DNA of 64,000 bases from Mesorhizobium sp. NZP2077 (GTDB taxonomy: Bacteria; Pseudomonadota; Alphaproteobacteria; Rhizobiales; Rhizobiaceae). The stretch lies in assembly GCF_013170805.1 (NCBI RefSeq), contig NZ_CP051293.1:1804001-1868000 (forward strand). The letters are read 5' to 3'. The notes under the pieces are model-generated. The model was not told where the DNA came from. It worked only from the letters and a program-made list of their open reading frames with translations, and did no database searches. Shown here piece after piece: positions 48,147 to 60,596 of this stretch. Position 1 is the stretch's first letter. Each line of letters begins with the position of its first letter. Made by a program: the position numbers and the translations under genes.

Positions 48147-51100
48147 ATGGCTTTGTTGTCAAAGCGTGTTGTTGCGCGTCCTGAGTTCGGAGCGTCAACC
48201 GGCCAGGAATCAGCCAGCGCGTATCTCACAGGAGCTCAGGCAGCGGCTCCGCAAACGGAGTCTCCGAGGCGCGCGAGTCGACGTTTCGCCATTCCGCCGA
48301 AACGTCTCGCGCTCTTGCTCGGCGCCACGGCGATGGTCGGGCTCTTTGCACCTTCTCCAGGCGTCGTCCACGCACAGGTGGTGATCAACCACGACGGTGC
48401 CAAGGGCGATGACGGTGCTTCCGTCTTCGGCAATGCCGATGGCGATCCGGGCCATCCGTCGACCGGTCCCGTCACGGACACGAACACCACATCCGGCGGC
48501 AACCAATATGGCGGGACCGCAAATGGCGGCCGGGGCGGCGACGGCGGCACCGTGTTTCAGCCTATACCGCCCAAGCTGGAGGGCGGCAACGGTGGCAGGG
48601 GCGCCGATGGTGGTGTCGTCGACGTTACCAACAATGCCACGCTGACCGGCTTCGGCATCATCAGCCAGGCCAATGGCGGCCGAGGCGGCGACGCCGGCTG
48701 GGCAGCCGATTTCGGGCTCTCCGATGGCGGCACCGGTGGCGGCGGCGGCAATGGCGGCAATGCAAAGGCCACGAATGCGCTTGGCGCGAGCGTGACAACC
48801 ACGCTCGCCAACCGCAACGGCATGACGGTCGAGGCCAGCGGCGGCAGTGGCGGCAATGGCGGCACCGAGGTTGGCGCCATCGGCGGTGGCGATGGCGGCA
48901 ATGGCGGCACCGGCGGCAATGGCGGCACAGGCGAAGGGGTCAATGCCGGTGACATCAGCACGCAAGGCACGCTTTCCAAAGGCATGCTTGTGCGCGCGGC
49001 CGGCGGCGTCGCCGGCGATGGCGCCGGTGGGTTTGGCCTGCTATCCGGACAGGGTGGCAATGGCGGTAACCCGACCATCGGCGGCAACGCGACAGGGAAC
49101 AACTCGGGCAACATCACGACAATCGGCGACTACGCCAGCGGCATGGTCGTGCAGTCGGTCGGTGGCGGCGGCGGCGATGGCGGCGATTCGTTCGGCGTTT
49201 GGGGTGGCGGCGGTTCCGGCACGGCCGGCAATGATGGCGCCACCGCAACCGGCACCAACACCGGCACGATCAAAACCAGTGGCGTCGGTGCGATCGGCAT
49301 GCTGGTCGAATCGGTCGGTGGCGGCGGCGGCGATGGCGGCGGCGCGATCGGCGTCGTTTCGATCGGCGGCACTGCTGGCGGTGGCGGCAAGGGCGGTACT
49401 GTCAATGCCAATGTCGGCGGAACGATCACCACCGGCGTCGACGGCAGCGGTGACGGCGCGCATGGCGTGCTCGCTCAGTCGGTCGGCGGCGGCGGTGGCA
49501 ATGGCGGCTTCGCGTTCTCTGCCGGCGCGACAATTGCCGTCGCCATTGGTGGTGGTGGCGGCACGGGCGGCAATGGTGGGGCGGTCAACGTCAACCAGGC
49601 GGGCGCTGGCGCCAACGTCAGCACCACGGGCAACTCGGCAATCGGCATTATCGCGCAGTCAATCGGCGGCGGCGGCGGCAATGGCGGCGGCAGCCTGGCC
49701 ATTGGCAGCATCGTCTCGGTTGCCGTCGGCGGCAGCGGCTCGGCCGGCGGCGACGGCGACGTGGTGACCTACAACATCGGCAACGCGACCGTTAAGACGA
49801 ACGGCACGGATTCCACCGGCATTCTGGCGCAATCGGTCGGCGGCGGCGGCGGCAATGGCGGTTTTGCCCTGAGCGGTGCCGGTGTCGTTGCGGTCGGCGT
49901 CGGCGGCCAGGGTGCAGCCGGCGGTTCCGGCAAGGAGGTCGACGTTACGTCCGGAGGCAACGTCGAGACCTCCAAGGATCGCTCGGTCGGTATCATCGCG
50001 CAGTCGCTCGGTGGCGGTGGCGGCAATGGCGGCTTTGTTGTCGCCGGCAGTTTTGGGGCCACCGTCGGGGTCGGCGGCTCGGGCAGCAAGGGCGGCGACG
50101 GCGGCGAGGTGTTCTTCCGCACGCCCGACGGTGGTGTCAATCAGTCGATCACCACGCATGGCACGGATTCGGCCGGCCTGATTGTCCAGTCGGTGGGCGG
50201 CGGCGGCGGCAATGGCGGCTTCGTCGGGACTTTCGCGACAGTGGCCAATCTGGGCATTGGCGGTGGTGCGGGCGCCGCCGGCGCGGGCGTTGCTGTCCAC
50301 ACGACCTATAATGGCTCGGTCGAGACCTTTGGAGAGCGTTCGGCCGGTATCATCGTGCAGTCGATCGGCGGCGGTGGCGGCAATGGCGGCGGCGTCATCG
50401 GCGTCGGGCTCGGGCTGACGGTGGGCATTGGCGGAAACGGAGCGGGCGGTGGCGGCGCCGGGGCCGTGGAATACCACTCGGCAAGCACCATCATAACCAC
50501 GCATGAAGCCGACTCGGCCGGTCTTATCGTGCAATCGATCGGCGGCGGCGGCGGCAATGGCGGCTTCTCGTTCAATCTGTCGGCGGGTGCCGCTGTCGGT
50601 GTGGGCGGCAAGGCTGGAGCAGCCGGCGGATCGAATACCGTCACGGTAAGCATAGACGACGGCACCATCCATACGATGAACGATCGTTCGACCGGCATTC
50701 TGGCTCAGTCGGTCGGCGGCGGTGGCGGCACGGGTGGCGGCAGCGTCGCCGGCAGCTTTGCCCTCAATGTCAGCATTGCAGGCAAGGGTGCAGGCGGCGG
50801 TGCCGGCAACATCGTCGATGTCACCAACGGGGCCGACATCACCACCGACGGTATCCAATCGCACGGGATCCAGGCGCAATCGATCGGCGGCGGCGGCGGT
50901 TCGGGCGGTTTCGCGATCGCCGTCGGCGGACCGTCGCTGGCGGTTGGCGGGGCTGCTTCCGATGGCGGCAGCGCCATGAAGGTCACGGTGACGAACACAG
51001 GTGAGATCAAGACAAACCAGGCGATGTCGATCGGTATCCTGGCGCAGGCCATTGGCGGCGGCGGTGGCGACGGCGGTCTCGCGGGAGCCGGTGGTCTGTT

Positions 51101-54100
51101 CACCGCGATTGGCGTTGGCGGCAAGGGTGGCGGCGGCGGCAATGGCGGCGAGGTGGTTGTCAAGAATACCGCCGCCATCACGACCAAGGGCGATCTCGCT
51201 CACGGTATATTGGCGCAATCGGTTGGCGGCGGCGGCGGCAATGGCGGCAGCGCCGGCGCGGTTTCCGTGGGCGCCTTCGTTGGCGTCGGCGTTGCCGTCG
51301 GTGGCGATGGTGGCGCCGGCCGCGACGCCATGGAGGTCGATGTCACCCAGGTCGGCGACATCACGGTCAGCGGCATGGGCGCCAAGGGCATCATCGCGCA
51401 GGCGATCGGCGGTGGCGGCGGCAATGGCGGCAAGGCCGTCGCCGGTGCGTTCAGTGTCGGTCTCTACGCTTCAGCGGCCGTAGCGGTTACACTCGGCGGT
51501 GATGGCGGCGATGGCGGCTCGGGTGGGGTGGTCAGCGTCAAGGCGGATGGCAAGATAGATTCCTTGACCAGCGCCGACGGCTCGGGCGGCATCGTCGCGC
51601 AGTCGATTGGCGGCGGCGGCGGCAATGGCGGTCGCGCGACATCCATCGCCGGCGCGGTGAGTGACGAAGTCGCGATCAATCTCGGTGTGGCCATCGGCGG
51701 CAGCGGCGGCAATGGCGGCCAGGGCAAGACGGTTACCGTGGAGATCGGTCTGGTCAGCGGTGGGGAGATCATCACCCACGGCTTCCAGGCTGTCGGTATC
51801 CTGGCGCAGTCTATTGGCGGCGGCGGCGGCAATGGTGGCGACACGTTTGGTGGCGCCGGCGGCTACGGCAACAGCGTAACGGTGACGGCTTCCGTCAACA
51901 TCGGCGGCAAAGGCGGCGGTTGCATTGGCAATGATCCGACCAAGTGCAACAGCGCCGGCGATGTCCACGTCACAAACGCCATGACGATTTCCACCGATGG
52001 CGACTCGAGCAGCGCGATTGTGGCGCAATCGATCGGTGGTGGCGGCGGCAATGGCGGCACCAGCACCGGCGGCAGCGCCAATGTCGGCGGCGGCGACGGC
52101 GTCAACATCGCGGCGAATTTCGCCATGGGCGGGGGTGGTAGCAAAGGCGGCTTCGGCAACACGGTCGACGTCGTCAATTCAGGCAACCTGACCACGACGG
52201 GGGCTTTCTCGTCAGGCATCATGGCGCAGTCGATTGGTGGCGGTGGCGGCATCGGCGGATCGAGCACGGCCAAATCCTACAACATCGGCGGCAGCAGCCA
52301 GACCAGCGTTAGCGTCAATATGGGCCTGGGCGGTTCGGGCGGCGGCGCCGCCGACGCCATGAAGGTGACGGTGGGCAACACCGGCATCATAAACACCTCG
52401 GGCTTTGGCTCGTCGGGCATCATCGCCATGTCCGTCGGCGGCGGTGGCGGTGCTGCCGGCGCCGCGTCGGCATCCGATGAAGATGTCGGCGGCGGCAGCG
52501 GCGGCGGTGAAGGGGATGACGGCCAGACTACCGTCTCGATCGGTGTTGCGTTGGCGCTCGCTGGCGGTACAGCAGGCAATGGTGGCGAGGTCTCCGTCAC
52601 CAACAACAACTCGATCTTCACCGACGGTGCTTTCTCCTACGGCATCAGTGCCAGTTCCATCGGCGGTGGCGGTGGCGTCGGCGGCTCGGCTTCAGCCGGT
52701 GCCAGCGCCAAATATGCCATCGGCGGCGGCATTGGCGGCGCCGGTGGCAGTTCAGGTTTCGGCCAACATGTCGAGGTCTTCAATCAAGCCAATGGGTTCA
52801 TCTGGACCAAGCAGGAAAACTCCATCGGCATCTTCGCGCAGTCTGTCGGCGGCGGCGGCGGTTCGGGCGGCGCCGGCAAGAGCACCGGCAGCGACGGCGG
52901 CAGCGTCGACATCAAGATGACCATGGGTGGGCTTGGCGCTGGCGGCGGCAATGGCGGCGACGTCAATGTCGAAAACAGCGGGACGGTCTGGACCGACAAG
53001 GCCAATTCGCACGGCATCCTGGCCCAGTCGATCGGCGGCAGCGGTGGCGTCGGCGGGGCAGCGGGCTCGGCCACCGCAGATGCCGAGACGACGATCGGCT
53101 TCGCTTTGGGCGGGCTGGGCGGCGACGGCGGTGAGGGCCATGCCGTTACGGTGAAGAATTTCGCATCAGGGTGGATCTGGACCCAGGGCGACAATTCCGA
53201 CGGCATTTTCGCCCAGTCGATCGGCGGCGGCGGCGGCGCGGCCGGTGGCGGCTCGACGACAAGTGGCGAAGCCGATACCAATGTCAGCCTGGCGGTTGGC
53301 GGCCTTGGCGGCAAAGGCAATACGGGCGGCAGGGTCGAGGTCGACAACTACGGCACGATCACAACCGAAGGAGATCTTTCACACGGCATCTTTGCCCAAT
53401 CGGTTGGCGGCGGTGGTGGCGCCGCGGGGTCCGCGTCCAATGCATCCACGGCTGACATGACGATAGGCGTGGCGACGTCCACTGTTGGGGGCGGGGGGGC
53501 CAATGGCGGCTATGTCGAGGTCAACAACGATGGTGTGATCAGCACATCCGGCAAGGGTGCGATCGGTATCATGGCACAGTCTGTCGGCGGCGGAGGCGGT
53601 TATACAGGCGTCGTTTCCAGCGATGCCGCCGGCGACGACTCCTTTACACTGAGCATTGGTGGCAAGGGCGGCAATGGCGGCAACGGCGGCGATGTCAAGG
53701 TGACCGTCAACGGCTCGATCAGCACGACAGGAGATTATGCGCACGGTGTTGTCGCCCAGTCGATCGGCGGTGGCGGCGGCTACGGTGGCGATGCCAATGG
53801 CAAGACCTCGAACGCACTGGCGATCGGCGGCTTCGGTGGCGCCGGCGGCGACGGCGGTGATGTGACTGTCATCCGCACCGGCACGATCACCACGACAGGT
53901 CTGGGCTCGATAGCCATCATCGCACAGTCCGTCGGCGGCGGCGGCGGCTTTGGCGGTGCTGGATTCGGGCGCTTCGGCGCTAGCGCCGACGGCGGCAGCG
54001 GCCTCGACAACAACACTGTCGGCTTCAAATCGCTCGGTGGCGACAAGGGCACCGGCGGCACCGTGAGCATCATCCAGTCCGGCGCGATCGAGACCGCTGG

Positions 54101-56369
54101 TGACCGTTCACATGGTATCGTCGCCCAGGCGGTTGGCGGCGGCGGCGGCGTCGGCGGCACGAGTTCGCTCGCCATGGGTCAGTCTGGCGCCGGCTCACAA
54201 GGCGGCATAGGCGACGCCGCGGCGGCGACGGCCAGCACCGACAGCCAGGTCTGGGTCAAAGGCGCAAGCTCCTATGCCATGTTCGGTCAGAGCGCGACCG
54301 GCCAAGGCAACTCGAACCTCGTCCATCTGACAGCCGAGGGAAGTCTTTTTGCCCAAGGTGCCGATTCGGTCGCGGCGTACGGCGAAAGCACGGCTCAAGG
54401 GACGAAGGGCAACATAACGCTCGACCTGGAGGGCCAATACACGATCGGCGGCGCCAACACCGGCGTGGCGGCCATGCTGGTCGGCGGCCAGAACAACACC
54501 GTCAATAACAACAGCCTGCTCTACGCGATGGGGGCGACGCCGACATTCTCGGTCATGCAGTCCAGTTTCGCCTCGTTCAAAGCGTCGCTGCTGGCTCCCG
54601 GGCCGGTCGTGCCCACTGACGCGATCCTTGAAACTCTGCTCGACGATTTCAGCCCATTCGCTATCACCGGAACGTCGGGCAACGATACGATCAAGAACCA
54701 ACAGAGCGTGGTGGGTCTCGGCCGCGTCATCGGCAACATCGACCTCGGCGGCGGCATCAACGAGTTCGACAATTTCGCCGATTCATCGATGGTTGGTCTC
54801 AAAACCATCAATCTCGGAGCCGGCGGGCTGTTCAAGAATCAGGGCCTGATGACCAACCAGGGTATCGGGGTCGTTGCGACCGTTGCCGTCACCGGTGGAT
54901 TTACCCAGGACGGTACCGGCAGTTTCGTCACCGACATCGACCTGAACAACCAGATCACCGACGCGCTGACATTGACCGGCGCCGGCAATTTCGACGGCAC
55001 GGCAGCGCTGAACTTCCTGTCGATCGACAAGCTGTTCACGCAATACGTGCTGGCGACCGGCTCGTCCATGGCTGACAACTACCTGACGCCGACGACGCCG
55101 CATCCCTATGTCGGCTTCAATTTCCTGACCAAGGTCGACGGCAACGATCTCGTTCTCTACGCCGACAACAAGACCTTCCTCCAACTGGCACAGGACCCGG
55201 GGTCCGGCACCAACGATCCAGGCGTGTTCCAGATGGCGCAGTATCTCGACGACGTCGAGGCCTCGTCCACCCCGGACAATCCAATGGCCCGGCTCATCAA
55301 CATGTTGCGTTTCCTGCCCAGCGAAGAGGAACTGGGCGCTGCGCTGACGCGACTGACACCACATTATGCGGTGCATACGTTCGACATGATCAACCGCGAA
55401 GCCGACATGATGCTGGAAGCGGCGCGCGAGTGCACCGGCGCGCCGGCCTACAAGAATCCGGATGGTCGCTGTGTCTGGGCGTCGATCAGCCCGCAGGCGG
55501 AGTATAGCCGCGATGCCGGTGCGGGGACGACAAGCCGCGACGACGTGCTGAAGACGATGTCGCTTGGCGGCATCGGCGAGGTCGGCCAGAACTGGTCGCT
55601 CGGCGCCACCATCGGCCGTACGGAATTCGATTCCAAGATCGACTTCAACGGCGATCTGCTGTCGGAAACCACCGGCGAGGCCTGGCAGGCATATGCGCTG
55701 GCGAAATATGCCAACAAGAACTACTTCGTCGATTTCGCAGTCGGCGGGGGTACCGGCTCCTTCAAGGGAGAACGCGATACGTATGTCGACCAGGTCGGCT
55801 TCATTCCGGGCGAAACGCTGATCGGCGATTATCTTCCGGAAGAACTGCTGCCCGGCATAGGCAACAGCGTGACCTACACCCAGAAGACCGCCATGTTCGG
55901 CGGCTCGGCGCGGTTCGGCGTAACGCAGCAGATGGGCGTTTTCTACCTGCAGCCGACCTTGCAATTGGACGCGCGCTGGCTGCGTGTTTCGGGCAAGGAA
56001 GAAGGCTCGGTGGCCGCCTTCAACTTCGATGGCTCGGCGAACACATACTATTCGGCGACCCCGGCTTTGGAGATCGGCACCGACATCGCGCTCAGCGATG
56101 TTGCCAGTCTTCGCCTCTACGGAAAGGCCGGAGTGGAGTTTTCCAATAAGGAGTGGGAGATCGAAGGCCGCTTCGCCGCGGCGGAGAATCTGCCCGGCAG
56201 CCCCGCATTGCACTTGACGGAGCCCGTCGATTCGCCGCTCTATCGGGTCGGCGCCGGCCTCGAGCTGAATGGCGTCAATGGCGTCGGCATGTCAGTCAGG
56301 TATAACGGCGCCTTCGGGGAAACGGTCAAACAGAATGCAGTCAGCGCGTCTCTCAAGGTCAGTTTCTAG
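48147..56369 (+). CDS. Giant repeat autotransporter (type Va secretion), 2740 residues
   Basis: A 76-residue extended signal peptide (hydrophobic KRLALLLGATAMVGLFAPSP, cleavage after VHA). The passenger starts with Gly/Asn-rich sequence and from residue 332 to about 2045 holds about 28 tandem repeats of mean 61 residues, each opening with G(I/V)xAQS(I/V)GGGGGNGG and closing with a beta strand such as VDVTNSGxITT. This predicts a long glycine-rich beta-solenoid. Residues about 2050-2420 are typical autotransporter stalk, and about 2440-2740 the 12-strand beta-barrel ending in SASLKVSF. One repeat (16) carries C1259 and C1267. Secreted to the cell surface, probable adhesin or matrix-like fibre. 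The IalB gene follows by 36 nt. Confidence 0.92.
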   Translation: MALLSKRVVARPEFGASTGQESASAYLTGAQAAAPQTESPRRASRRFAIPPKRLALLLGATAMVGLFAPSPGVVHAQVVINHDGAKGDDGASVFGNADGDPGHPSTGPVTDTNTTSGGNQYGGTANGGRGGDGGTVFQPIPPKLEGGNGGRGADGGVVDVTNNATLTGFGIISQANGGRGGDAGWAADFGLSDGGTGGGGGNGGNAKATNALGASVTTTLANRNGMTVEASGGSGGNGGTEVGAIGGGDGGNGGTGGNGGTGEGVNAGDISTQGTLSKGMLVRAAGGVAGDGAGGFGLLSGQGGNGGNPTIGGNATGNNSGNITTIGDYASGMVVQSVGGGGGDGGDSFGVWGGGGSGTAGNDGATATGTNTGTIKTSGVGAIGMLVESVGGGGGDGGGAIGVVSIGGTAGGGGKGGTVNANVGGTITTGVDGSGDGAHGVLAQSVGGGGGNGGFAFSAGATIAVAIGGGGGTGGNGGAVNVNQAGAGANVSTTGNSAIGIIAQSIGGGGGNGGGSLAIGSIVSVAVGGSGSAGGDGDVVTYNIGNATVKTNGTDSTGILAQSVGGGGGNGGFALSGAGVVAVGVGGQGAAGGSGKEVDVTSGGNVETSKDRSVGIIAQSLGGGGGNGGFVVAGSFGATVGVGGSGSKGGDGGEVFFRTPDGGVNQSITTHGTDSAGLIVQSVGGGGGNGGFVGTFATVANLGIGGGAGAAGAGVAVHTTYNGSVETFGERSAGIIVQSIGGGGGNGGGVIGVGLGLTVGIGGNGAGGGGAGAVEYHSASTIITTHEADSAGLIVQSIGGGGGNGGFSFNLSAGAAVGVGGKAGAAGGSNTVTVSIDDGTIHTMNDRSTGILAQSVGGGGGTGGGSVAGSFALNVSIAGKGAGGGAGNIVDVTNGADITTDGIQSHGIQAQSIGGGGGSGGFAIAVGGPSLAVGGAASDGGSAMKVTVTNTGEIKTNQAMSIGILAQAIGGGGGDGGLAGAGGLFTAIGVGGKGGGGGNGGEVVVKNTAAITTKGDLAHGILAQSVGGGGGNGGSAGAVSVGAFVGVGVAVGGDGGAGRDAMEVDVTQVGDITVSGMGAKGIIAQAIGGGGGNGGKAVAGAFSVGLYASAAVAVTLGGDGGDGGSGGVVSVKADGKIDSLTSADGSGGIVAQSIGGGGGNGGRATSIAGAVSDEVAINLGVAIGGSGGNGGQGKTVTVEIGLVSGGEIITHGFQAVGILAQSIGGGGGNGGDTFGGAGGYGNSVTVTASVNIGGKGGGCIGNDPTKCNSAGDVHVTNAMTISTDGDSSSAIVAQSIGGGGGNGGTSTGGSANVGGGDGVNIAANFAMGGGGSKGGFGNTVDVVNSGNLTTTGAFSSGIMAQSIGGGGGIGGSSTAKSYNIGGSSQTSVSVNMGLGGSGGGAADAMKVTVGNTGIINTSGFGSSGIIAMSVGGGGGAAGAASASDEDVGGGSGGGEGDDGQTTVSIGVALALAGGTAGNGGEVSVTNNNSIFTDGAFSYGISASSIGGGGGVGGSASAGASAKYAIGGGIGGAGGSSGFGQHVEVFNQANGFIWTKQENSIGIFAQSVGGGGGSGGAGKSTGSDGGSVDIKMTMGGLGAGGGNGGDVNVENSGTVWTDKANSHGILAQSIGGSGGVGGAAGSATADAETTIGFALGGLGGDGGEGHAVTVKNFASGWIWTQGDNSDGIFAQSIGGGGGAAGGGSTTSGEADTNVSLAVGGLGGKGNTGGRVEVDNYGTITTEGDLSHGIFAQSVGGGGGAAGSASNASTADMTIGVATSTVGGGGANGGYVEVNNDGVISTSGKGAIGIMAQSVGGGGGYTGVVSSDAAGDDSFTLSIGGKGGNGGNGGDVKVTVNGSISTTGDYAHGVVAQSIGGGGGYGGDANGKTSNALAIGGFGGAGGDGGDVTVIRTGTITTTGLGSIAIIAQSVGGGGGFGGAGFGRFGASADGGSGLDNNTVGFKSLGGDKGTGGTVSIIQSGAIETAGDRSHGIVAQAVGGGGGVGGTSSLAMGQSGAGSQGGIGDAAAATASTDSQVWVKGASSYAMFGQSATGQGNSNLVHLTAEGSLFAQGADSVAAYGESTAQGTKGNITLDLEGQYTIGGANTGVAAMLVGGQNNTVNNNSLLYAMGATPTFSVMQSSFASFKASLLAPGPVVPTDAILETLLDDFSPFAITGTSGNDTIKNQQSVVGLGRVIGNIDLGGGINEFDNFADSSMVGLKTINLGAGGLFKNQGLMTNQGIGVVATVAVTGGFTQDGTGSFVTDIDLNNQITDALTLTGAGNFDGTAALNFLSIDKLFTQYVLATGSSMADNYLTPTTPHPYVGFNFLTKVDGNDLVLYADNKTFLQLAQDPGSGTNDPGVFQMAQYLDDVEASSTPDNPMARLINMLRFLPSEEELGAALTRLTPHYAVHTFDMINREADMMLEAARECTGAPAYKNPDGRCVWASISPQAEYSRDAGAGTTSRDDVLKTMSLGGIGEVGQNWSLGATIGRTEFDSKIDFNGDLLSETTGEAWQAYALAKYANKNYFVDFAVGGGTGSFKGERDTYVDQVGFIPGETLIGDYLPEELLPGIGNSVTYTQKTAMFGGSARFGVTQQMGVFYLQPTLQLDARWLRVSGKEEGSVAAFNFDGSANTYYSATPALEIGTDIALSDVASLRLYGKAGVEFSNKEWEIEGRFAAAENLPGSPALHLTEPVDSPLYRVGAGLELNGVNGVGMSVRYNGAFGETVKQNAVSASLKVSF
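49140..54290 (+). repeat. Coding repeat array inside the autotransporter (~28 units of about 184 bp)
   Basis: Each unit holds a GC-rich core encoding AQSxGGGGGNGG. The core DNA (for example CAGTCGGTCGGCGGCGG) is nearly identical between units while the rest diverges, so the array is old but its glycine core is kept alike. It can cause slippage and unequal recombination. Confidence 0.88.
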
Positions 56370-56405
56370 GCTGGTTCGAGACGGAGCCGGGCGGGAGAGG
56401 TCTTG

Positions 56406-56987
56406 ATGAGGAAATACGCGTATTTGGTTGCGGTGCTGGGTGTGGCCTGCATTGTCGGGCTGCCGGCCGTGGCCGCGCAGACCAAGGGCGACAAGGTGGC
56501 GGCGACGCCCGCGCCCGCCGCTGACGCGCCGCAACTGCCCGGCGGGGCATCGGCCTTGTCCGAAACCCATGGCGACTGGACGGTCAATTGCCAGATATCG
56601 GGCACGAACAAGGTCTGCAGCCTGTCGCACCAGCAGTTCAACAAGCAAAGCAACCAGCGGCTGCTGGCGATCGAGCTGTCGAGCAAGACCGGTGACGATG
56701 CGACGGGGACCCTTGCCCTGCCGTTTGGACTGGCTCTCGCCAAGGGCGTTACGCTCACCATCGACGACCAGAAGCTGGACGGCAGCCTGGCGTTCAACAC
56801 CTGCCAGGTGGTCGGCTGCCTGGTGCCGGTGGCGTTCGATGCCAATGTCACACCTCTGCTCAAGAACGGCACGACGCTGAAAATCGACGCCTTTGCCGCC
56901 GACACGGGGCAAGCGGTGAGCTTTTCCATTCCGCTCAACGGTTTTGGCGGGGCGCTTGCCCGCACGGCGGAGCTTTTGTCCAACTGA
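56406..56987 (+). CDS. Invasion-associated locus B (IalB) family secreted protein
   Basis: 193 residues. Signal peptide to about residue 25 (GLPAVAAQ), then the IalB domain beginning SETHGDWTVNCQISGTNKVC with LLAIELSSK, LALPFGLALAKGVTLTIDD and FNTCQVVGCLVPV. Four cysteines may form two disulfides. In Bartonella IalB affects red-cell invasion, but family members are common in free-living rhizobia and their role there is unclear. GGAGAGG precedes the ATG, and the 36-nt gap to the autotransporter suggests the two are co-transcribed. Confidence 0.88.
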   Translation: MRKYAYLVAVLGVACIVGLPAVAAQTKGDKVAATPAPAADAPQLPGGASALSETHGDWTVNCQISGTNKVCSLSHQQFNKQSNQRLLAIELSSKTGDDATGTLALPFGLALAKGVTLTIDDQKLDGSLAFNTCQVVGCLVPVAFDANVTPLLKNGTTLKIDAFAADTGQAVSFSIPLNGFGGALARTAELLSN

Positions 56988-57043: not shown

Positions 57044-58513
57044 TCAAACAGCGATCGTCTTCAACCGCTCGGCAATGAGGGCGGCGAGCCGCGTCGCCAC
57101 CTCGTCCTTGCTCATTTCGGGCCATTCCTCGACGCCGGTCTTCGACACGATCCGCACCCGGTTGCGATCGCCGCCCATCACGCCTGAAGGGCCGATGCCG
57201 CTTTCATGCGAGACATCGTTTGCGACGATGAAATCGGCACCTTTCTTCCTGAGCTTGGCCTCGGCGTTGCGCAAAAGATCCTGCGTCTCGGCGGCGAAAC
57301 CGATGACCAGGCCGGGCCGTTGGCTGTGATGGCCGACGCCGGCAAGGATGTCGGGGTTCTCGACCATGCGCAGCACCGGCGGGCCTTCACCCGCCACCTT
57401 CTTGATCTTCTCACCGGCCGAATTCTCGCTGCGCCAGTCGGCGACGGCGGCGACGAACACCGCGGCGTCCGCTGGCAGAAGCTGTTCCACCGCATCGTGC
57501 ATTTCCTGCGCACGTTCGACATGGATGGTCTTCACACCGGCCGGGTCGGCAATGCTTACGGGACCCGAGACGAGGCGCACATCGGCGCCGAGCCTGGCCA
57601 ACGCCGCGGCGATGGCGTGGCCCTGCTTGCCGGAGGAGCGGTTGGCGATGTAGCGCACCGGGTCGATCGGCTCGTGTGTCGGGCCGGAGGTGACGATGAT
57701 CTTGCGCCCCGTGAGCGGTTTGAGGCCGGCATCGAGCAGCACTTCGATAGCGGCGACGATCTCCAGCGGCTCGGCCATGCGGCCTTCGCCGGCCTCATTG
57801 CTCTCGGCCATCTCGCCCTTGGCCGGACCCATGAAGGCGATGCCGTCCTTGCCCAATGTCGCGCGATTGCGGCGGGTGGCCGGATGCGCCCACATTCTGG
57901 GGTTCATCGCCGGCGCCATCAGCACCGGCTTATCGGTGGCCAGCAGCACGGTCGAGGCGAGATCGTTGGCATGGCCGTTGGCGAGCTTGGCCATCAGATC
58001 GGCGGTAGCGGGCGCGACCACCAGAAGGTCGGCCTCGCGCGACAGCCTGATGTGGCCGACATCATGCTCGTCATTGCGGTCGAACAATTCGGTGAAGACA
58101 TGGTCGGCCGAGAGCGCGCCGACAGACAGCGTGGTGACGAATTCCTGTGCCGCTGACGTCATCACCACGCGCACTGCCGCGCCGCGCTCGCGCAGCCGGC
58201 GGATCAGGTCGAGCGCCTTGTAGGCGGCGATGCCGCCGCCGATGATGAGCAGGATGCGCTTGCCAGAGACGCTGCCGCGCGGAAGGATCCTGCCCGCAGG
58301 GGCCGCAACAGGAGCCGCTGTACCCTGCGCAATGGTCAACTCGCGCAGGGTCTTTTCGATCTGGTCGATACGGCCGGGTCCGATCTGACCGTCGACTGCG
58401 GCCCGGATCATCACCCGCGCCTGTTCTTCCATCGAGCGGTTGTTCTCCGCCGCCAACCGGCGCAGCATCTCCTTGACCTCATCGTCAAGGTTGCGAATGG
58501 TGATGCTGGCCAT
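57044..58513 (-). CDS. coaBC: RHH-CoaBC fusion: bifunctional phosphopantothenoylcysteine decarboxylase/phosphopantothenate-cysteine ligase with N-terminal FitA-like domain
   Basis: 489 residues, against about 400 for usual CoaBC. Residues 1-40 (ASITIRNLDDEVKEMLRRLA, NNRSMEEQARVMIRAAV) are a ribbon-helix-helix domain of the FitA antitoxin type. A linker (about 41-80) leads to CoaC, a flavodoxin-like decarboxylase with GGGIAAYKALDLIRRL, APATADLMAKLANG and PAMNPRMW, and CoaB with SGPTHEPIDPVRYIANRSSGKQG. It makes 4'-phosphopantetheine from phosphopantothenate, cysteine and CTP. No start codon fits at the natural CoaC start. The neighbouring gene is not a PIN toxin. Downstream of ubiE-ubiB but with its own leader carrying FitA-like half-sites. 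Confidence 0.9.
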   Translation of the reverse strand: MASITIRNLDDEVKEMLRRLAAENNRSMEEQARVMIRAAVDGQIGPGRIDQIEKTLRELTIAQGTAAPVAAPAGRILPRGSVSGKRILLIIGGGIAAYKALDLIRRLRERGAAVRVVMTSAAQEFVTTLSVGALSADHVFTELFDRNDEHDVGHIRLSREADLLVVAPATADLMAKLANGHANDLASTVLLATDKPVLMAPAMNPRMWAHPATRRNRATLGKDGIAFMGPAKGEMAESNEAGEGRMAEPLEIVAAIEVLLDAGLKPLTGRKIIVTSGPTHEPIDPVRYIANRSSGKQGHAIAAALARLGADVRLVSGPVSIADPAGVKTIHVERAQEMHDAVEQLLPADAAVFVAAVADWRSENSAGEKIKKVAGEGPPVLRMVENPDILAGVGHHSQRPGLVIGFAAETQDLLRNAEAKLRKKGADFIVANDVSHESGIGPSGVMGGDRNRVRIVSKTGVEEWPEMSKDEVATRLAALIAERLKTIAV

Positions 58514-58514
58514 G

Positions 58515-58564
58515 TGATTGCACTTTTCTCATCTTAGCCGATGGCGATGATAGCAATGCAATCA
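58515..58564. promoter_or_regulatory. Candidate FitA-type operator in the coaBC promoter
   Basis: Three TGATnGCA-like half-sites lie just before the coaBC ATG: TGATTGCA (58515-58522), TGATAGCA (58548-58555) and its inverted partner TGCAATCA (58557-58564). The last two make a 17-bp palindrome with one mismatch. TGATAGCA is, as I recall, the half-site of the gonococcal FitAB operator. GTGATTGCA/TGCAATCAC is also a perfect 9-bp dyad over the whole 52 bp. Confidence 0.55.
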
Positions 58565-58619
58565 CTGACGAGCAAGCGCGATCGGCGATCGCCAGCGAGC
58601 CTATTTTGGCAATTCGGAA

Positions 58620-58910
58620 TCAGTCTTCTCGGATCGGAAGACCCACCAATTTCCCGGAACCGCTCGTTGGTGGGTTGGCTTCAAGCACAATGTTGACGTA
58701 ACCTGACCACTCTAGATGGCGTTGCGTTAGCGTAACGCGGCGCCCCTCAAACTCGTGGCCCTCGGTCAGCACAATCCCGGCCCAAAGCTTTGGCTCCGAG
58801 CGCTCAAGTTTCATCGTAAAAGCAGCCGGCACCTCGGGACGGAACTCACCTGCAATGAGCCACCCGTAGCCATAGATTGGCTTCACCTCTACGACTGGCA
58901 ACGTGTCCAT
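58620..58910 (-). CDS. Hypothetical protein (96 aa)
   Basis: Sequence begins MDTLPVVEVKPIYGYGWLIA and contains FTMKLERSEPKLWAGIVLTE and ANPPTSGSGKLVGL. No signal peptide or membrane helix; no family recognised. It lies between ubiB and coaBC on the same strand, where many relatives have the two genes adjacent, so it looks like an inserted small gene. Its codon use is less GC-biased than its neighbours. Confidence 0.5.
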   Translation of the reverse strand: MDTLPVVEVKPIYGYGWLIAGEFRPEVPAAFTMKLERSEPKLWAGIVLTEGHEFEGRRVTLTQRHLEWSGYVNIVLEANPPTSGSGKLVGLPIRED

Positions 58911-58954: not shown

Positions 58955-60529
58955 TCACAAGATTTTCCACGCAATATAGATCAGCGTCAGCGCGATCACC
59001 CACAGCGCCGCGCGGCCGGAGCGGCTGTAGCGCGCCTCAGCCTTGCCTATGGCGCGGGCGGTGGTCTCGTCGAAGCGCAGCCCGTGCTCGGCCATCAGGT
59101 CGATTTCGCGCGACAGCCGGTCGGTGCGCGCGGCAAGTTCGGGTATCTGGCGGGCCAGCGTCAGCAGCGCCTTGGCGCCGTCGCGCGCATCGATCATCAT
59201 GCCACGCGGGCCAAGGTTGCCGGCAATCCAGCCGCCGACCACCGGCTCGGCCGTCTTCCACATGTTGAAGGCCGGATCGAGCGTGCGCGCCACGCCTTCG
59301 ACCACCACCATGGTCTTTTGCAGCAGGATCAATTCCGGCCTTGTCGCCATGTCGAAGAGCTCGGTCACTTCGAACAGCAGCGTCAGCAGCTTGGCCATGG
59401 AAATGGTCTCTGCCGGCTGGCCGTGGATCGGCTCGCCGATGGCGCGGATCGCTTGCGCGAACGCCGCGACATTGTGCTGACGCGGCACGTAGCCGGCCTC
59501 GAAATGCACTTCGGCAACACGCAGATAATCGCGCCTGATGAAACCGTAGAGGATTTCGGCGAGGAAGCGGCGCTCCTTCTTGCCTAGCCTGCCAGCAATG
59601 CCGAGATCGACGGCGACGATGGTGCCGTTGGCCTCGACGAACAGATTGCCGGGATGCATGTCGGCATGGAAGAAGCCGTCGCGCAAAGTATGGCGCAGGA
59701 ACGACTGGATGAGATTGGCGGCGATCGCCTTCAGGTCGTGGCCGGCGGCTTCGAGGCCCGCGATGTTGTTCATCTTGACGCCGTCGACCCATTCCATGGT
59801 CAGCACGTCGCGGCCCGTGCGTTCCCAGTCGACGTAAGGCACGCGAAAGCCTGGATCGTCCCTGGTGTTCTCGCCAAGCTCCGACAGGGCCGCGGCCTCG
59901 AGGCGCAGGTCCATCTCGATCTTGGTGGTCTGCGCCAACGTCTCTGTCACCTCGACAGGCCGCAACCGGCGCGACGAGGGGATATATTTCTCCTGCAGGC
60001 GGGCGGCGAGGAAATAGCTCTCGAGATCATGGAAGAAGCGGCGGCGCACGCCGGGCCGGATCACCTTCACCGCGACCTTGGTGGCAACGCCGTCATGGAT
60101 GGTTTCGGCGGCATGGACCTGGGCGATCGAGGCTGCCGCGACGGGATCGCCGAACTCGGCGTAGAGATCGCCCACCTTGCGCCCGAGCGAGGCCTCGATG
60201 GCCGCCACCGCCTCGGTCTTCGGAAAGGTGTGCATCTTGTCCTGCAGCATGGCGAGATCGAGCGCCATGTCGTTGCCGACGACGTCGGGCCTTGTCGCCA
60301 GGAACTGGCCGAGCTTGACATAGGACGGGCCGAGCCGGACCACCGCCTTGGCCAGCCGGTCGCTGCGCTCATAAGCCAGCGCGCGGCGGCGGGTGAACAG
60401 CCGCGCCAAACGCCAGCCGAATTTCGGCAGGCCGGACAGTTCCTCGCCCGGCAGCGCGGCGATGACGCCCTCGCGCACCAGCACCCAGCCGGCCCGTGCG
60501 AGCCTGAAACCGGCGCCGACGCTGCTCAT
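58955..60529 (-). CDS. ubiB: UbiB family ABC1 kinase-like protein (ubiquinone biosynthesis)
   Basis: 524 residues. ABC1/UbiB kinase-like fold: KLGQFLATRPD, the Ala-rich loop AAASIAQVHAA and the lysine KVAVKVIRPGV, catalytic-loop HADMHPGNLFV and DLGIAGRL, with a C-terminal single transmembrane helix (LWVIALTLIYIAWKIL). UbiB is an atypical ATPase aiding ubiquinone head-group modification, not itself the hydroxylase. Start at MSSVGAGFRLARAG preferred over a GTG at 60562. It follows ubiE by 67 nt on the same strand. Confidence 0.94.
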   Translation of the reverse strand: MSSVGAGFRLARAGWVLVREGVIAALPGEELSGLPKFGWRLARLFTRRRALAYERSDRLAKAVVRLGPSYVKLGQFLATRPDVVGNDMALDLAMLQDKMHTFPKTEAVAAIEASLGRKVGDLYAEFGDPVAAASIAQVHAAETIHDGVATKVAVKVIRPGVRRRFFHDLESYFLAARLQEKYIPSSRRLRPVEVTETLAQTTKIEMDLRLEAAALSELGENTRDDPGFRVPYVDWERTGRDVLTMEWVDGVKMNNIAGLEAAGHDLKAIAANLIQSFLRHTLRDGFFHADMHPGNLFVEANGTIVAVDLGIAGRLGKKERRFLAEILYGFIRRDYLRVAEVHFEAGYVPRQHNVAAFAQAIRAIGEPIHGQPAETISMAKLLTLLFEVTELFDMATRPELILLQKTMVVVEGVARTLDPAFNMWKTAEPVVGGWIAGNLGPRGMMIDARDGAKALLTLARQIPELAARTDRLSREIDLMAEHGLRFDETTARAIGKAEARYSRSGRAALWVIALTLIYIAWKIL

Positions 60530-60596
60530 GGCTGCACCCAGGCCGAGCCTTGCGGCCGGCACGAGCTATAGCGAGGATGGGAAATGCGGGCCAGCC

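Follow-up and report, generated by a model that had tools for sequence, protein, structure and literature searches.

Domain organization of the coaBC locus

The stretch of DNA analysed here (hereafter the window) comprises 64,000 nt of the Mesorhizobium sp. NZP2077 contig NZ_CP051293.1. The coaBC gene lies on its reverse strand at positions 57044..58513, as a single frame of 489 aa that runs from an ATG at 58513 to a stop at 57044. A reading of the sequence alone had proposed that the first ~40 residues of this protein form a ribbon-helix-helix (RHH) domain like that of the FitA antitoxin, in one open frame with complete CoaC and CoaB domains and a linker of about 40 residues. Domain searches bore out this proposal. 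Residues 2-40 (58394..58510, reverse strand) matched the Pfam family PF22513, FitA-like_RHH (E = 2.5e-14, 53.4 bits vs a cut-off of 27), PF02441 (Flavoprotein, CoaC) covered residues 85-256 and PF04127 (DFP, CoaB) residues 267-455. The NCBIfam equivalog TIGR00521 (coaBC_dfp) spanned residues 83-478 (E = 3e-121, 405 bits vs a cut-off of 219.7). From these matches the CoaC domain was placed at residues 83-256 (57746..58267, reverse strand) and the CoaB domain at residues 267-478 (57080..57715, reverse strand), and CoaBC is, with catalysis predicted from its domains, a bifunctional enzyme that carries CoaC and CoaB in one chain. A variable linker, residues 43-82 (58268..58387, reverse strand), separates the RHH head from the enzyme. 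The AlphaFold2 model of the window protein (mean pLDDT of 77) predicts a linker helix at residues 46-62, and pLDDT falls below 50 at residues 60-79. The ribbon was absent from both AlphaFold2 monomer models, in which residues 2-7 form a low-confidence helix.

A profile built from eleven fused RHH heads matched FitA itself in the PDB (2h1o, 2bsq; E = 3e-7); the single 45-aa head sequence alone gave no FitA match there. The solved CoaBC (Dfp) chain 6tgv, which has the same CoaC-CoaB body and no RHH head, gave a full-length CoaC-CoaB match (E = 4.6e-81) that began only at query residue 84, and the RHH head is therefore an addition to CoaBC. Both PF22513 and PF02441 were present in 61 of 61 database relatives of residues 1-90 (E ≤ 1e-10), and PF04127 in all of them except P0002, a 288-aa fragment.

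The upstream neighbour of coaBC is ubiB (58955..60562, reverse strand; TIGR01982). The PIN toxin gene that would adjoin a FitA-type antitoxin gene is absent from the ubiB-coaBC interval of the window, as the sequence-only reading had noted. This interval holds a 96-aa frame (58620-58910, reverse strand) with no match in Pfam, NCBIfam or a plasmid collection. On the other side, an IalB-family gene (56403-56987, forward strand; PF06776, E = 1e-22) converges with coaBC, and beyond it lies a glycine-rich, repetitive frame of 2740 aa (48147-56369, forward strand) that has no Pfam match at E ≤ 0.001 and is autotransporter-like by reading.

Purifying selection on the RHH head

One objection to the fusion is that translation may start downstream of the head, within the linker. 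We compared by the Nei-Gojobori method 36 close genes, namely that of the window and those of 35 named loci, one from a Hyphomicrobiales MAG and the other 34 from records titled Mesorhizobium. The head (residues 1-42) had a dN/dS ratio of 0.058, close to that of CoaC (0.067); the ratio was 0.117 in CoaB and 0.381 in the linker (residues 43-80). The RHH head is under strong purifying selection, being constrained like the CoaC core. Start-like codons, CTG included, reached 30% of the 36 genes in just three linker columns, where TTG was found in 7/36 and 1/36 genes and GTG in 4/36, and single ATG codons are present in the linkers of some relatives (e.g. P0033 and P0053). With so low a dN/dS across the head and so few start-like codons in the linker columns, the fusion survives the objection, and these sequences make a linker start unlikely as the sole translation start of coaBC.

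Distribution of RHH-CoaBC fusions

Searches of 151 genomes of the family detected CoaBC in 148. The first set of loci (set 1) comprised the window and 120 others, taken from one genome per genus (L011-L114) and from 16 further genomes; the 28 CoaBC loci left out of it included contig-edge or fragment matches in G031, G056, G077, G110 and G130, and in G056 and G110 the match contained the head. Among the 121 loci of set 1, 38 were fused, 24 had separate RHH and PIN genes upstream, 2 had a PIN remnant, 50 had neither and 7 had an RHH gene only, a class that partly reflects the limit of the PIN profile used (L017 has a PIN gene by Pfam, and L019, L027 and L041 have FitB-like genes by reading). 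The proportion 38/121 is no frequency because 13 of the 16 extra genomes were picked as known or likely fused; in the one-per-genus series (L011-L114), the fusion occurred in 24 of 103 genera other than that of the window. The best 80 matches in named genomes, 13 of which duplicate set 1, comprised 48 fused loci, 25 with RHH and PIN genes, 1 with RHH only and 6 with neither. Fused genes among these best 80 came from M. loti DSM 2626, M. huakuii, M. ciceri WSM4083, Phyllobacterium and Paramesorhizobium deserti, and also from a Hoeflea MAG, an Ochrobactrum and Brucella haematophila. The fusion is also kept in small genomes of the family, of 1.4-1.9 Mb (L110, L113 and L091), the heads of L110 and L113 being diverged by reading.

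Within the same order, 199 genomes were surveyed and 20 loci were chosen among the matches listed; RHH was absent at 15 of these and the other 5 were fused. All five sampled genomes of one genus (g143) in another family (f35) carried the fusion. Relatives of its head bear the NCBI name Bradyrhizobium, and this genus is apparently Bradyrhizobium. The 120 relatives of this head among the matches listed all contained PF22513 and PF02441, and all but P0076 and P0099 contained PF04127; the record of P0099 is named 'plasmid stability protein/3-polyprenyl-4-hydroxybenzoate decarboxylase'. Beyond the order, 239 other genomes of the class were surveyed, two of which belong to the same order, and up to 29 candidates were scored in each. 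Apart from that of the window itself, no frame of 440-530 aa among these candidates matched PF22513 at E ≤ 1e-10; PF22513 matches did occur in frames of 248, 397 and 796 aa.

Database annotation names these fusions mostly as plain CoaBC, and we found no paper on the RHH-CoaBC architecture in the open-licence full-text literature (searched by titles and the starts of abstracts, with most subscription journals lying outside it). The earlier reading had seen in the fusion a candidate for an undescribed regulatory system; the architecture itself is widespread and visible in databases.

The ubiB-coaBC interval and the history of the fusion

In many relatives the gap between ubiB and coaBC is a slot for separate RHH antitoxin and PIN toxin genes, the ubiB stop codon lying no more than 120 bp before the RHH start in 19 of the 24 RHH+PIN loci. 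In G073, a genome of the same genus whose CoaBC is 93% identical to that of the window, the order is ubiB (by reading), an RHH gene of 69 aa, another of 84 aa, a PIN gene of 135 aa and coaBC; Pfam identified both RHH proteins as FitA-like and confirmed the PIN protein. The presence of RHH-PIN genes in this slot, even within the same genus, points to the origin of the RHH domain of the fusion. Locus L120 (G135), which was counted as fused, has a separate RHH-PIN pair followed by a fused RHH-CoaBC. Two fusions look, by reading, like exceptions to the variable linker: in L119 (the same sequence as L204, from a Hoeflea MAG) a stretch of the linker resembles by eye the tails found in antitoxins of the FitA type, for example in L017, and in L162, a Mesorhizobium MAG, an antitoxin-like head and tail appear joined to CoaBC. 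The array upstream of L162 is of the unfused type and lacks the boxes of the window. A motif search found PIN toxin relics before unfused coaBC in both PIN-remnant loci and in 1 of the 50 loci with neither gene. Remnants of a PIN toxin C-terminus, signs of toxin decay, lie just before the unfused coaBC of L031, L040 and L047.

In a tree of CoaBC, fused and unfused proteins were intermixed, with 14-15 changes of state, at least 9 of them forced by starred branches, and the nearest row to the window was the unfused G073. The fusion is dispensable, since it was gained or lost so often. The tree of the RHH domains (38 columns, 4 of 72 forks starred) placed 30 of the 38 fused heads in one clade (SH-aLRT 90) and needed 4 changes, vs 25 in shuffles; for 37 of the 38 fused RHHs the most similar sequence was another fused RHH. 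We lean from these sequences towards an old fusion that repeatedly disappeared or gave way to antitoxin-toxin pairs, together with a few younger fusions, L162 and perhaps L014 and L119/L050. As the RHH alignment has 38 columns, this account of the origin is a leaning and not a proof. A single recent deletion of the toxin gene, in its simple form, was rejected as the origin of this fusion on two results, the 37 of 38 heads nearest to another fused head and the 4 changes in the RHH tree vs 14-15 in the CoaBC tree.

A conserved array of boxes at the inferred coaBC promoter

Upstream of coaBC in the window lies a candidate operator, TGATTGCA-T-TGCTATCA, made of two boxes with a 9-bp period (58548..58564, reverse strand), and a third box, TGCAATCA, ends 1 bp before the start codon (58515..58522, reverse strand). 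We take TGCTATCA to be the FitA half-site as well. The exact inverted pair TGATTGCA-T-TGCTATCA occurs once in the 7.69-Mb genome. The 64-kb window contains three exact boxes, every one of them upstream of coaBC, and the other upstream flanks, 177,710 bp in total, contain two. Conservation across the 36 aligned upstreams of the close genes was 98% over the array (21 columns, chosen as the conserved core), 100% (rounded) over the box at the ATG and 62% over the other 40 upstream columns. Successive boxes were spaced by 9 bp in 24 of 50 cases.

The candidate operator overlaps a putative -10 element, TATCAT (58547..58552, reverse strand), and a putative -35 element, CTTGCT (58571..58576, reverse strand), lies 18 bp before it, the best of four spacings tried. 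CTTG preceded TATCAT by 18 bp in 34 of the 35 upstreams having the core, the 36th (L147) being a one-base variant. The array would then take up the spacer between the two elements and reach into the putative -10. A scan for E. coli-type promoters detected none upstream of coaBC, and for that reason we speak of an inferred promoter. As read from the sequence, the conserved candidate operator sits at this putative promoter of coaBC itself.

The boxes accompany the fusion across loci

The boxes were first noticed in the window and then tested in the other loci. In all 121 loci of set 1, the window included, the 120 bp that precede the start were examined on both strands for TGATTGCA or TGCTATCA. 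Results showed boxes in 36/38 fused loci, 3/24 RHH+PIN loci, 3/7 RHH-only loci, 0/2 PIN-remnant loci and 0/50 loci with neither, that is, in 6/31 separate RHH genes and 0/52 remaining coaBC genes. A confounding factor is that the end codons of ubiB spell boxes in six loci of set 1 (3 fused, 3 with a separate RHH gene) and in 1 RHH+PIN locus of the second set described below. When only the sequence after the ubiB stop was considered, boxes were present in 33/38 fused, 2/24 RHH+PIN, 1/7 RHH-only, 0/2 PIN-remnant and 0/50 remaining loci (pooled, 3/31 separate RHH antitoxin genes and 0/52 other coaBC genes). Fused and unfused loci thus remained clearly different once the ubiB codons were left out. 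In five fused loci (5/38) the sequence after ubiB contains no box like those of the window: TGATATCA is paired in L072 and L124, L119 has a TGATTTCA-type pair, and L049 and L126 have near-boxes only.

In 67 further non-duplicate loci (set 2), boxes followed ubiB in 42/43 fused loci, 2/19 RHH+PIN loci (3/19 when ubiB codons are included) and 0/5 loci without RHH or PIN, the 43 fused loci not being independent because 36 of them are from Mesorhizobium or near it. Dinucleotide shuffles gave an expectation of 1.8/38 loci and a maximum of 8 in 200 shuffles, for a three-box set that includes TGATATCA, added after viewing the relatives. A kinship-corrected test, which used the 120-bp counts with ubiB codons included, drew 8 independent pairs on well-supported branches; on average the boxes changed with the fusion in 6.8 pairs, against it in 0.0 and neither way in 1.2 (median p = 0.016, range 0.016-0.063). 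In the other family (f35) boxes were present in 5/5 fused genes.

Discussion

The earlier reading had also suggested that a CoA-biosynthesis enzyme carrying its own DNA-binding domain could be an autoregulatory metabolic enzyme. An N-terminal RHH fused to a complete enzyme, with a conserved array at its own putative promoter that is strongly associated with the fusion and almost unparalleled elsewhere in the genome, supports this suggestion as far as sequence comparison goes. We propose, with a probability of roughly 0.8, that RHH-CoaBC would be trifunctional, acting both as a CoA-biosynthesis enzyme and as an autogenous repressor of its own gene in the manner of PutA; RHH-CoaBC probably regulates its own synthesis. 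The economical explanation is negative autoregulation, because the head belongs to a DNA-binding family, the array lies at the likely promoter of the gene itself, selection on both is tight and the genome holds one marginal other FitA-like match.

In the mechanism that we envisage, the RHH head, which would descend from FitA-type antitoxins, would dimerise, and its ribbon would read the 8-bp boxes TGATTGCA and TGCTATCA placed every 9 bp between the -35 and the -10 of coaBC, with a further box beside the start codon. When RHH-CoaBC is ample, several dimers of the head, joined through the CoaBC oligomer, would fill the array cooperatively, and the filled array would block RNA polymerase, which would keep the level of the enzyme steady. 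The long and, in the AlphaFold2 model, partly disordered linker would perhaps let the heads of one oligomer reach adjacent boxes, and the affinity might shift with substrate, FMN, CTP or CoA. As a tentative extension, the occupancy or oligomer state of CoaBC (phosphopantothenate, CTP, FMN, CoA, acyl-CoA) might set the DNA affinity of the head and so wire the CoA pool to transcription, and the ubiB-coaBC gap might be a place of recurring antitoxin capture into an essential enzyme, more than once.

Among the alternatives, the one that fares best, though improbable, is that RHH-CoaBC regulates further genes besides its own. In its favour, a perfect direct pair, TGATTGCACTGATTGCA (C1:1428128-1428144; L211:3129-3145), is found ~26 bp before a phyR-like gene. 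Against it, the exact inverted pair has its single genomic occurrence at coaBC, and the direct pair is found only in the window's own genome among 30 Mesorhizobium upstreams (30 of 40 matches had loci). The phyR-like gene was rejected as a second target on this comparison, the other 29 upstreams being without the TGATTGCACTGATTGCA pair; at least one TGCAATCA is present upstream of it in 10 of the 30 genomes. By reading, the gene is phyR-like and a frame close by encodes a sigma factor.

A purely structural role, in which the RHH is kept just for dimerisation or for the stability of the enzyme oligomer and DNA binding has been lost, seems less probable than that. RHH domains dimerise and CoaBC is oligomeric, which would suit such a role, as would the many relatives that manage without the head. 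This reading leaves unexplained the conserved array of boxes tied to the fusion, and also the ribbon residues T5 and R7, which are invariant across eleven diverse fused heads.

We consider it very unlikely that the boxes are real operators bound in trans by another RHH regulator or antitoxin. Other, similar 9-bp arrays lie upstream of unfused antitoxin genes (by reading, e.g. TGCTAGCA or TGACTGCA), and the genome does hold one further PF22513 match, in a survey that covered FitA-type RHH only; this match, however, scores 28 bits and is barely above the cut-off of 27, and the boxes track the fusion across lineages. Even less credit is due to the idea that the head is still an antitoxin, neutralising a PIN toxin encoded elsewhere and so tying toxin control to an essential enzyme: RHH-PIN pairs do occupy the same locus in relatives and the L119/L204 fusion keeps, by reading, a FitA-type-like tail, yet the linker, where a toxin would be expected to bind, is poorly conserved in the window's lineage (the dN/dS of 0.381 given above). 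That the head is a relic or an annotation effect and the working protein begins in the linker is hardly credible, for all the TTG, GTG and single ATG codons in the linkers of some species, given the dN/dS across the head and the promoter-like array that directly precedes the RHH start.

The closest functional analogue of the proposed autorepressor is PutA, which is described (PMC5293562) as a two-activity flavoenzyme whose N-terminal RHH moonlights as an autogenous repressor of the put regulon. Both proteins carry an N-terminal RHH on a bifunctional enzyme, but their enzyme domains and pathways are unrelated (the window protein has seven Pfam matches at E ≤ 1, and these include neither PRODH nor P5CDH), the head of RHH-CoaBC is of the FitA type, and PutA controls the put regulon whereas the exact inverted pair of RHH-CoaBC was found only at its own gene. 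Two other papers describe four FitA-FitB heterodimers assembling on a 36-bp segment upstream of fitA-fitB (PMC3920265) and operator-bound FitAB, a system of the VapBC type (PMC3384007). The head of RHH-CoaBC belongs by profile match to the same RHH family (PF22513) as FitA of the Neisseria FitA/FitB system, from which the fusion differs in that the window has no adjacent PIN partner and in that a variable linker and an enzyme seem to replace the antitoxin tail. MetJ and Arc are RHH proteins whose dimers read short boxes, as we propose for RHH-CoaBC; unlike it, they are separate regulators that are not fused to enzymes.

The transcriptional control of bacterial CoA synthesis is poorly known. 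RHH-CoaBC would offer a concrete circuit in agriculturally important rhizobia, consisting of one enzyme, one promoter and ~60 bp of DNA, and would add to PutA a second RHH-bearing enzyme that represses its own gene, apparently one that arose independently. Relatives of the window have the separate antitoxin-toxin pair, the fused form and, at one locus (L120), both, which suggests how a toxin-antitoxin regulator may become domesticated.
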